This document shows, piece after piece, positions 17,297 to 44,230 of a stretch of DNA of 64,000 nucleotides. The DNA lies in assembly GCA_947632615.1 (NCBI GenBank), contig CANRPW010000011.1, positions 1-64,000 on the forward strand, in the 5' to 3' direction. Under the pieces are notes generated by a model that did not search any database, was not told the origin of the DNA, and saw nothing but the letters and a program-made list of their open reading frames with translations. A program made the position numbers and the translations under genes. Position 1 is the stretch's first letter, and each line of letters begins with the position of its first letter. This DNA is from an uncultured Clostridia bacterium. Lineage in GTDB: Bacteria; Bacillota; Clostridia; Lachnospirales; CAG-274.

Positions 17297-17455
17297 CCAA
17301 GCTGCGTAGTCTGCGCGGTGTCGGGACGTGACAACCAACAAAAGAGAGAGGGCGCGTATGCGCCCTCTCTCTTTTGTTGGTTGTCACGTCCCGACACCGC
17401 CCCGCGGGCACCCCCAACCAAACCATCTGCGATGGTTTGGTTGGGGGTGGCTAAC
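17297..17455 (+). repeat. double-hairpin element, copy E
   Basis: The 5' end GACCAAGCTGCG is followed by HP1, a perfect 40-bp stem with loop GTAT (17316-17399), and the linker CCCGCGGGC. HP2 is a perfect 18-bp stem with loop TGC (17410-17448), then GGCTAAC. HP2 arms are identical to those of copy G. It is the first of three tandem copies between convergent genes. Confidence 0.87.
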
Positions 17456-17514
17456 ATATCAAAATAAATACACTTGCCAATAATAAAGTGTTCCCAAATA
17501 AATCTAAGGTGACT

Positions 17515-17655
17515 GCTCGGTGCCGGGGCTTGGCAAGCGGTAAAGGAGAGATGGCGCAAATGCGCCATCTCTCCTTTACCGCTTGCCAAGCCCCGGCACC
17601 GACCCGCGGGCGCCCCTGTCAAACCATCTTCGATGGTTTGACAGGGGCGGCAAAC
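17515..17655 (+). repeat. double-hairpin element, copy F
   Basis: HP1 is a perfect 41-bp stem with loop AAAT (17517-17602), linker CCCGCGGG. HP2 is a perfect 18-bp stem with loop TTC (17611-17649), then GCAAAC. The loop-proximal half of HP2 (AAACCATC) is shared with copies E and G and the outer half differs. Confidence 0.87.
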
Positions 17656-17671
17656 ATCTTCATCACAAGTC

Positions 17672-17812
17672 TGCTCGGGGTCAGGGCGTGACAAGCAACA
17701 AAAGAGAGGGCACGAATGTGCCCTCTCTTTTGTTGCTTGTCACGCCCTGACCCCGAGCCGCGGGCACCCCCAACCAAACCATCTACGATGGTTTGGTTGG
17801 GGGTGGCTAACA
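17672..17812 (+). repeat. double-hairpin element, copy G
   Basis: HP1 is a perfect 40-bp stem with loop GAAT (17674-17757), linker CCGCGGGC. HP2 is a perfect 18-bp stem with loop TAC (17766-17804), then GGCTAAC. It is the third tandem copy. HP2 arms equal those of copy E while HP1 differs. Confidence 0.87.
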
Positions 17813-17838
17813 TATCTTTACGGATCGGTAAAAACTTG

Positions 17839-23042: not shown

Positions 23043-23075
23043 AAAAAAATCCATCCATATAGGACGGATTTTTTT
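23043..23075. terminator. bidirectional terminator between hpt and the invertible segment
   Basis: ATCCATCC and GGACGGAT pair with one mismatch. A run of A precedes and a run of T follows, so it can stop transcripts from both sides. It would stop a leftward transcript if the adjacent promoter segment were inverted. Confidence 0.65.
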
Positions 23076-23080
23076 AATAT

Positions 23081-23107
23081 GCAGCACATTATATTATTGT
23101 GTTGCAT
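23081..23107 (+). repeat. left inverted repeat / putative recombination site
   Basis: TATATTATTGTGTTGCAT (23090-23107) is a perfect 18-bp inverted copy of 23253-23270. The site itself is a dyad: GCAGCACA (23081-23088) and TGTGTTGC (23098-23105) around a 9-nt AT-only centre, the layout expected for two recombinase-binding arms flanking a strand-exchange core. Confidence 0.75.
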
Positions 23108-23252
23108 ATATAGGGTAGATTTTCGGCAGTTTTCTCATAAAATTAAAATTGACATTTCATAAGTTTTATATTATAATATTATAAGTTGAATTAATGATTT
23201 AAAAGTTTTGTTATATTTCTCGGCAAAAAAGCTATTATGTATAAAAATCTCA
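23108..23252. promoter_or_regulatory. putative 145-bp invertible promoter segment
   Basis: This segment is bounded by the 18-bp inverted repeats and contains a perfect consensus promoter facing the recombinase gene. Inversion would turn the promoter toward the terminator at 23043-23075. It carries no ORF. It also holds ATTTTCGGCAGTTT (23119-23132), repeated directly at 23986-23999. Confidence 0.7.
23149..23177 (+). promoter_or_regulatory. consensus promoter inside the invertible segment
   Basis: TTGACA (23149-23154), a 17-nt spacer and TATAAT (23172-23177). In the orientation seen here it reads into the recombinase gene 125 nt away. Confidence 0.8.
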
Positions 23253-23270
23253 ATGCAACACAATAATATA
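23253..23270 (-). repeat. right inverted repeat / putative recombination site
   Basis: ATGCAACACAATAATATA is the exact reverse complement of 23090-23107. The outer half of the dyad seen at the left site is only half conserved here (TTAGTTTA at 23272-23279). It ends 31 nt before the recombinase start. Confidence 0.75.
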
Positions 23271-23301
23271 TTTAGTTTAGCTGATGCAGGAGGTAAGCCG
23301 T

Positions 23302-23874
23302 ATGAAGATGACTGATCCTATTAAAAACAAAAAGGACGTAAACAGACTATTAAATTATTATTTGACGGAGGAAAACTTCAACCTGAGAAATCATCTCCTC
23401 ATTACAGTTGGGTTGTTTACTGCCTTTCGCATAAGCGATATTCTCAGCATGAGGTGGAGTGATGTTCTTAACGATGATGGAATGGTTGTGGACATGATAA
23501 CCATAAGGGAGAAAAAGACTAAAAAGTACAACTCCGTATATGTAAATAAAACGCTTGAAACAGCAATCGCACAATTTGCCACAGAAGAAGATGACAAAAC
23601 AGGCTTTATATTTAAAGGCAGGTCAGGTTGTCTTCACCGTACACAAGCATACAGAATAGTTAAAAAGGCAGTTGATGCCCTTAAAATAAGGGGCAGAATA
23701 AGCTGTCATTCACTGAGAAAAACCGTTGGCTATCACCTTTATCTTAAAGGGGAGTCGCAGGTTCTTCTTATGAAAATATATAACCATTCTACCTTTGAGA
23801 TAACGAAAAGATATTTATGCATAGATCAGCTGGAAAAAGACAAAGCCTTTTCAGACTTATCTTATGTATATTGA
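23302..23874 (+). CDS. small tyrosine recombinase (catalytic domain only)
   Basis: The 190-residue protein consists of a tyrosine recombinase catalytic domain without the N-terminal core-binding domain. It has Arg I in TAFRISDILSM, the beta-hairpin Lys in REKKTKKYNSVYV, the HxxR box CHSLRKTVGYH, the second His in IYNHST, and the nucleophile Tyr in KRYLCID, so all catalytic positions are present. Size and layout are those of FimB/FimE-type invertases. An ATG at 23284 is open, but AGGAGG (23288-23293) lies eight bases before ATG 23302, so that is the start. The promoter lies in an invertible-looking segment directly upstream. I infer that the enzyme flips that segment. It may also act on distant sites. 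Confidence 0.88.
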   Translation: MKMTDPIKNKKDVNRLLNYYLTEENFNLRNHLLITVGLFTAFRISDILSMRWSDVLNDDGMVVDMITIREKKTKKYNSVYVNKTLETAIAQFATEEDDKTGFIFKGRSGCLHRTQAYRIVKKAVDALKIRGRISCHSLRKTVGYHLYLKGESQVLLMKIYNHSTFEITKRYLCIDQLEKDKAFSDLSYVY

Positions 23875-23960: not shown

Positions 23961-24038
23961 AAAAAACAAAGCACACGTTATGCTTATTTTCGGCAGTTTA
24001 AAGCGTATTTAGATGTCCTAAACTTTTCTATAAAAAAG

Positions 24039-24059
24039 TCCCCGATTTTTTTTCGGGGA
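24039..24059 (+). terminator. hairpin between the recombinase gene and tuf
   Basis: TCCCCGA, eight T, TCGGGGA, followed after GA by another eight T. It can terminate rightward transcription from the recombinase gene and, with A-runs on the left, possibly leftward read-through as well. Confidence 0.55.
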
Positions 24060-24072
24060 TGATTTTTTTTGC

Positions 24073-24113: not shown

Positions 24114-25301
24114 TTATTCGATGATCTCAGTAACTGCGCCTGAACCAACTGTTCTGCCGCCTTCACGGATAGCGAAACGAAGACCCTTTTCCATAGCGAT
24201 AGGCTGGATAAGCTGTACTTCCATTTCTACGTTGTCACCGGGCATACACATTTCTGTGCCTTCGGGAAGTGTGATAACGCCTGTAACGTCAGTTGTTCTG
24301 AAATAGAACTGAGGACGATAGTTTGAGAAGAAAGGCTTATGACGTCCGCCTTCGTCCTTTGTCAATACGTAAACCTGACCCTTGAAGTGAGTATGAGGTG
24401 TGATTGAACCGGGCTTAGCAAGAACCTGACCTCTTTCGATCTCTGTTCTCTGAACACCACGAAGGAGTGCACCGATGTTGTCACCTGCCTGAGCATAGTC
24501 AAGGAGCTTACGGAACATCTCGATACCGGTTACAACTACCTTACGAGCTTCTTCCTTGATACCTACGATTTCTACTTCTTCAGAAACCTTAAGCATACCT
24601 CTTTCTACTCTACCTGTAGCAACTGTACCACGACCTGTGATTGAGAATACGTCCTCAACAGGCATGATGAAAGGCTTGTCAGCATCTCTCTCAGGAGTTG
24701 GGATCTCTTTGTCAACAACTTCCATAAGTTCGATGATCTTGTCGCCCCATTCGCCTGAGCAGTCTTCAAGTGCCTGGAAAGCTGAACCTCTAACGATAGG
24801 TGAATCTTCAAAGCCGTATTCGTCAAGAAGCTCTGTGATCTCCATCTCTACAAGATCAAGGAGTTCTTCGTCGTCTACCATATCACACTTGTTCATGAAT
24901 ACAACGATCTTAGGAACGCCTACCTGACGAGCGAGAAGGATGTGCTCTCTTGTCTGAGCCATAGGACCGTCAGTTGCAGCAACTACGAGGATAGCGCCGT
25001 CCATCTGAGCAGCACCTGTGATCATGTTCTTTACATAGTCAGCGTGGCCTGGGCAGTCAACGTGTGCATAGTGTCTGTTAGGAGTCTCATATTCAACGTG
25101 AGCTGTGTTGATAGTGATTCCTCTTGCCTTTTCTTCGGGAGCCTTGTCGATGTTGTCGAATGCAACAGCTTCACCAAGGTGATATCTTTCCTGAAGAGTC
25201 TTTGTGATAGCTGCGGTAAGAGTTGTCTTACCGTGGTCAACGTGACCGATTGTACCAATATTTACATGTGGTTTTGTTCTTTCAAATTTAGCTTTAGCCA
25301 T
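24114..25301 (-). CDS. tuf: elongation factor Tu
   Basis: EF-Tu delivers aminoacyl-tRNA to the ribosome with GTP. The 395 residues are canonical: [14 protein letters not shown], the switch [31 protein letters not shown] and NKCDMVD for guanine. AGGAGG precedes the ATG. Although downstream of fusA, it has its own promoter in the 142-nt gap and its own terminator. Codon use is more GC-rich at third positions than in its neighbours, as expected for a highly expressed gene. Confidence 0.99.
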
Positions 25302-43944: not shown

Positions 43945-44230
43945 AAAAAAAGCTCCCGTTTCTTAAAGAAACGAAAGACTACACTTTACTTCCGCGGTAC
44001 CATTCTTATTCATCCTTAAAAAGATGCACTCAATGTCGGGTACTTTCATACCCTGCCGATAAATAACGGACGGCTTTCCGTCAGAGCCTACTCATTTTTC
44101 AGCCCTGCCACTCAAAGGCGAGTTCGATCATCTTTCAGCAATATCTTCCACCAACCGATATCTCTCTTGAGCTTTCCGACAACCTACTATTCCTTTTCTT
44201 CGTGTTTTCATATGGTCTAAAATTAACATT
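43945..44230 (-). ncRNA. T-box leader, leucine specific (specifier CUC)
   Basis: On the minus strand the 285-nt leader contains the stem I elements (AGAGAGATATCGG, TTGGTGGAA), a specifier loop GAACTCGCC with CTC at 44122-44120, the T-box AATGGTACCGCGGAAGT (about 44005-43988) that pairs with the uncharged tRNA acceptor end, and a terminator hairpin CTTTCGTTTCT/AGAAACGGGAG followed by seven T (43946-43952). CUC is a leucine codon, agreeing with leuA next door. Uncharged tRNA-Leu would stabilise the antiterminator and switch leuA and the aminotransferase on. Confidence 0.93.

Follow-up and report, generated by a model that had tools for sequence, protein, structure and literature searches.

Is the short segment upstream of a small tyrosine recombinase gene an invertible promoter, and does it control the very enzyme that turns it? 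The locus lies in the window, the whole stretch of 64,000 nt that was analysed, which belongs to an assembly (G000) of 2.42 Mb in 65 contigs with 98.3% completeness. It is best read, with good confidence, as a phase switch: the recombinase flips the promoter segment from which its own gene is transcribed, together with the surface-protein gene that follows in most relatives of the genus. The locus comprises the following elements.

23043-23075: bidirectional-looking intrinsic terminator outside the left site, which would block leftward transcription in the OFF state
23080-23106: putative left recombination site, TGCAGCACA - core TTATATTAT - TGTGTTGCA; the inner part is the 18-bp repeat, and the inner arm and core type recur in relatives
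23108-23252: 145-bp putatively invertible segment, now ON; homologous to the segment of genome G024 only as the reverse complement, with a promoter that mirrors those of 26 OFF relatives
23149-23177, + strand: promoter TTGACA-17-TATAAT (12/12), facing the recombinase
23253-23280: putative right recombination site; inner arm and core form the perfect repeat 23253-23270, and the outer arm is degenerate
23288-23293, + strand: ribosome-binding site AGGAGG, assigned from sequence
23302-23874, + strand: 190-aa catalytic-domain-only tyrosine recombinase (PF00589, AlphaFold2 and PDB matches)
24038-24060, + strand: terminator 3´ of the recombinase, before the convergent tuf gene (24114-25301, - strand)

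The repeat arms (23090-23107 and 23253-23270) comprise 18 nt each, lie 145 nt apart and are 100% complementary. When the 330 nt 5´ of the gene were shuffled 1000 times under a dinucleotide model, no shuffle reached the inverted-repeat score of 18 that these arms have (maximum 16, mean 9.0). The enclosed promoter, with TTGACA at 23149-23154 and TATAAT at 23172-23177 separated by a 17-nt spacer, matches the consensus at 12/12 positions on the + strand, which was observed in only 0.06% of Markov shuffles of such segments. The window therefore displays the inverted repeats around a promoter that are expected of an inverton. The 18-bp left repeat forms the inner half of the dyad at 23080-23106, in which 8/9 arm bases pair. 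The terminator is composed of two arms (23043-23056 and 23062-23075) that are 93% complementary and flanked by A7 and T7. A first-pass annotation had described a perfect 18-bp repeat around 145 bp, a perfect promoter aimed at the recombinase, a left repeat that is a dyad around an AT core in the form of a recombinase site, and a bidirectional terminator, and all of these elements were recovered. A 14-bp exact direct repeat, ATTTTCGGCAGTTT, was also observed within the segment (23119-23132) and behind the recombinase (23986-23999), above the chance expectation for the window. Elsewhere in the window, three ~100-nt repeats at 17311-17816, located between the genes for a TPR-like protein and an ABC transporter, form perfect 41-42-bp palindromic hairpins and are REP- or MITE-like, and a T-box leader occupies 43964-44209 on the - strand (Rfam RF00230, 132 bits).

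The complete recombinase gene starts with the ATG at 23302, 31 nt past the right repeat, and its stop codon ends at 23874, consistent with the 190-residue, catalytic-domain-only enzyme of the first-pass annotation. An alternative in-frame ATG at 23284 would yield 196 aa; the ribosome-binding site and the homologues favour 23302 as the probable start. The protein matches the PF00589 profile (E = 2.9e-21, profile positions 5-166 of 172) with 76.5 bits, far above the curated cut-off of 27.1. The catalytic set R-K-H-R-H/W-Y is intact (R43, K72/K75, H136, R139, H162 and Y171) and conserved across the clade. The AlphaFold2 model has a mean pLDDT of 94.0, and the best PDB matches are XerH (5jjv) and XerA (5hxy). 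An N-terminal core-binding domain, which is usual in Xer proteins and phage integrases, is absent; small DNA invertases likewise lack this domain, and the invertase subgroup needs none. The FimB/FimE-type invertase models NF007370 and NF007371 yielded only 26.7 and 33.9 bits against cut-offs of 221 and 222, and the protein is therefore not filed as a member of the FimB/FimE family.

The recombinase was found in 18 of the 48 genomes of the window's GTDB family, often in multiple copies; across the order, 47 of the 392 genomes sampled contained it. At each locus the same procedure was applied: the best ungapped inverted repeat in the upstream 330 nt and the best promoter on either strand of the segment were recorded, and repeats that scored at least 14 were considered strong (shuffle means were 8-10). 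Twenty-nine of 36 usable family cassettes reached this score, with segments of 119-152 bp. A promoter that matches at 11/12 or more positions was present in all but one of them (28/29), compared with 2.6% of Markov shuffles. These counts are based on one genome per species and include the near-duplicate cassettes L062/L063 and L067/L068. A leftward terminator outside the left site was present in at least 19 of the 29 relatives, as well as in the window (pair I4); this number is a lower bound because the scan misses stems flanked by A/T runs, the window's among them. The arrangement of repeat, promoter and recombinase is thus conserved among the family relatives. Many left flanks in the family (e.g. 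L066, L073, L076 and L089) bear TGTCGC or TGTCAC followed by ACTTTGTCAC just outside the left site, which is possibly an accessory binding site; the motif is absent in the window. One family member, L090 (G012:C30:17964-18512), lacks the promoter segment. Its ribosome-binding site is immediately preceded by the left-flank motif and one site, which looks like a loss of the segment.

Evidence for inversion comes from the closest relative, G024, which belongs to the same genus and whose cassette directly adjoins tuf as in the window. The G024 locus has cargo genes and hpt is elsewhere, so that synteny is limited to the tuf side. The two segments align as reverse complements (z = 8.5) and not in the forward direction (z = 0.2). 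Two further genus segments show the same preference relative to the window (z = 3.8 versus 1.1 and 4.4 versus 0.9). On these alignments, the comparison shows that the segment inverted between the window and G024 while the flanks and the gene kept their orientation. The event would date from after their common ancestor, as shown by a comparison between species, not within a population. The segments of distant relatives are too diverged to give an orientation signal in alignment, and the orientation of these cassettes rests on promoter position. Of the 29 family cassettes, 26 have a promoter directed away from the recombinase (OFF), two have one directed toward it (ON; the window and L089) and one is undecided, which is a bias across species and not a within-population ratio. 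Measured from the nearer repeat, the -35 element of the OFF cassettes begins at 25-54 bp, mostly at 33-45 bp. The two ON cassettes mirror this exactly, with distances of 41 and 38 bp to the opposite repeat. Both ON cassettes are placed apart in the recombinase tree, each amid OFF cassettes. The opposite orientations expected of an inverton were thus observed between species, for G000 versus G024 and as 26 OFF to 2 ON. These data agree with the first-pass annotation in that the segment is invertible and the present orientation is ON. They also support its expectation that inversion would silence the gene by directing transcription leftward into the terminator.

In the assemblies of relatives, contig ends within 400 nt of the recombinase occur 15 times upstream, at the switch, versus two times downstream (6:1, p = 0.13, and 9:1, p = 0.02), which weakly hints at mixed orientations or repeats. 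Flipping presumably continues within populations. Alternatively, the window copy could be a relic that inverted in the past and is now locked ON as an ordinary promoter-gene unit without output. The assembled ON state, the missing cargo gene behind the recombinase and the degenerate outer half of the right site are all compatible with such a relic. However, the 18-bp repeat and the core are still perfect, the catalytic residues are intact and weak outer halves are also found in several relatives, and we therefore regard a locked copy as improbable.

Each cassette carries two sites of dyad-like form. In the genus they follow the pattern TGCAACACA-core-TGTGTTGCA and elsewhere TGTAACACA-core-TGTGTTACA, and the inner arm and core of the left and right sites are identical or nearly so. 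Left and right sites share 96% identity within a cassette, a value biased upward by the selection of cassettes for repeats, compared with 65% between cassettes, which suggests that the cores change together. Such cassette-specific cores match what matched-core strand exchange predicts and may reflect this mechanism. In the window, an identical 8-bp core is common to 23080-23106 and 23253-23280, and strand exchange at this core would therefore invert 23108-23252. The recombinase probably acts on these adjacent sites, a pairing drawn from proximity and co-conservation.

Another recombinase of the cell could instead flip the promoter, with the gene at 23302 merely one of the controlled genes and its product acting elsewhere in trans. 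The genome encodes eight further PF00589 proteins, and RecV of C. difficile works on a switch that is distant from its own gene (PMC2784873). Against this stand the variation of arms and core among cassettes along with the adjacent recombinase, the presence of a separate recombinase in each cassette of relatives that have several, and the failure to find a second inverted-repeat pair with these arms in the genome. Control by another enzyme is accordingly given only a small chance. The same search bears on the proposal of the first-pass annotation that the enzyme is a master switch acting on other sites in trans. In the window's own genome, the 18-mer with up to three mismatches has 12 matches, compared with 10 for the control, which is background level, and no good inverted partner was found for any near match. 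When these arms were searched with a gap of 140-170 nt, only this locus was found. Within the scope of these arms and this spacing the master switch was rejected; the switches of the relatives have a surface or EPS gene in cis as their output.

This output differs among cassettes. In the genus, the recombinase is usually followed by a same-strand gene for a secreted protein with BspA-type leucine-rich repeats (LRR_5), dockerin, GLUG, RCC1-like or Cu-amine-oxidase-N domains, and the recombinase would therefore be the first gene of an operon under its own switch. In the rest of the family, the next gene encodes a cohesin/lectin protein or a beta-helix protein, or belongs to an EPS cluster led by a Wzz/Wzc-like P-loop protein (EPS-type P-loop kinase). 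A crude test detected a hydrophobic N-terminal segment in 21 of 27 same-strand neighbours. Several cassettes, that of the window among them, are solo and are followed by a convergent gene. The interval between the window recombinase and tuf contains neither a cargo gene nor a visible remnant of one. Either the switch in the window has lost its output, or the module exists here as an autonomous copy. The earlier statement that the only cis target of the switch is its own invertase consequently holds for the window but not for the genus, where a surface gene usually follows.

Cassettes are also dispersed and multicopy, with six in G219, seven in G161 and five in G007. Such copies, the solo copies beside unrelated convergent genes and the distant homologues in phages and plasmids could indicate that the cassette is mainly a small mobile element, in which the repeats serve as recombination sites for moving the unit and promoter inversion is a by-product. 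Both repeats, however, are located upstream of the gene and do not bound it, and no unit ends or target duplications were found in the copies that were read. Selfish movement also leaves the conserved promoter orientation, spacing and downstream surface cargo unexplained, and a mainly mobile element is thus very unlikely. Distant homologues of the recombinase occur in IMG/VR as well. As a specificity control, an upstream inverted repeat was found in just 4 of 76 viral homologues, and the exact window site was not found in the viral contigs searched. A phage origin of the layout was rejected on these two results.

The phase switch controlled by its own recombinase would operate as follows. In the ON state, which is the assembled state, the promoter would transcribe the recombinase, and the accumulating enzyme would push the segment to OFF. 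In the OFF state, the promoter would fire into the terminator at 23043-23075, the recombinase would drop to a leak level and the return to ON would be rare; leak, read-through and other recombinases are candidate routes back. Since the recombinase is the first gene transcribed in ON, this state should be self-limiting, and a mostly OFF population with short ON pulses would be expected. If the flipping rate follows the recombinase level, the steady-state ON fraction would be 1/(1 + r_on/r_off), and the 26:2 distribution across species would fit a ratio of ~13. The term self-limiting in the first-pass annotation is thus reasonable and fits the counts of 26 OFF to 2 ON across species; the negative-feedback kinetics is what we infer. 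The ON state of the window itself counts against it, as a strongly self-extinguishing switch would make ON uncommon.

Beyond the window's family, cassettes of this recombinase clade often retain a pair of inverted repeats, with an intrinsic terminator in the segment where the window's family has a sigma-70 promoter. These loci (L109, L110, L116, L120, L123, L127, L131, L135, L138, L139 and L140) belong to other families of the order. In 15 such segments, the terminator lies on the strand away from the gene in 10 and toward the gene in two (L120, and L140 with both); the corresponding figure for the window's family is 1/29. The terminator-type cassettes are mostly solo and sometimes dispersed, with 6-7 copies per genome (G219 and G161). 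They would correspond to cwpV-like invertible terminators that precede the recombinase gene itself. A wider generalisation, which we consider slightly more doubtful than probable, is a Clostridia-wide family of self-extinguishing pulse switches, in which the recombinase is first in the inverted operon. ON would be transient by design, with a fraction set by the ratio of leak to full expression, and the switch would rely on either an invertible promoter or an invertible terminator, combined with interchangeable surface genes or kept alone as a solo oscillator.

Most known promoter switches keep the recombinase apart from the output. With the recombinase as the first output, negative feedback would be built into the DNA, which predicts transient ON pulses and would provide a compact natural part for the study of bet-hedging. 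The ~30 natural enzyme-site pairs with distinct cores are useful for understanding site choice by small tyrosine recombinases without an N-terminal domain, and the cargo suggests that dockerin, lectin and BspA-type surface proteins are phase-variable in uncultured gut Clostridia.

At the DNA level, the switch in the window would work in the same way as fimS of E. coli and the RecV switches of C. difficile. The fimS element also has short inverted repeats around a promoter, and FimB and FimE are small catalytic-domain-only tyrosine recombinases, as in the window. In contrast, fimB and fimE are transcribed from separate promoters of their own and not from the invertible one, with feedback exerted via transcript termination. 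As cited in PMC2784873, orientation-dependent feedback on FimE biases the fim switch to OFF (Joyce and Dorman 2002; Hinde 2005), so that feedback on a recombinase has precedent. At the C. difficile switches (cwpV and flgB), a clostridial tyrosine recombinase likewise flips a short stretch of DNA that precedes surface genes. The cwpV switch employs an intrinsic terminator in the OFF state (PMC2784873), which the sister families of the window's family appear to resemble. Unlike the window recombinase, recV is neither near cwpV nor under the control of the cwpV switch (PMC2784873). Gut invertons from PhaseFinder-type surveys are similar in that invertible promoters lie beside genes for surface proteins and EPS, and a recombinase is often encoded nearby. 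They differ in that the invertase is the first gene driven in the window's family. A survey of a defined human gut community reported that invertases in the vicinity of invertons generally lie where the invertible promoter could not drive them; group 145 is the one possible exception (PMC11892184). No described family with the invertase as the leading gene of the operon under its control turned up in a literature search that covered few subscription journals. The window's family is best described as a variant of the known invertible promoters, with the recombinase first and the cargo second.
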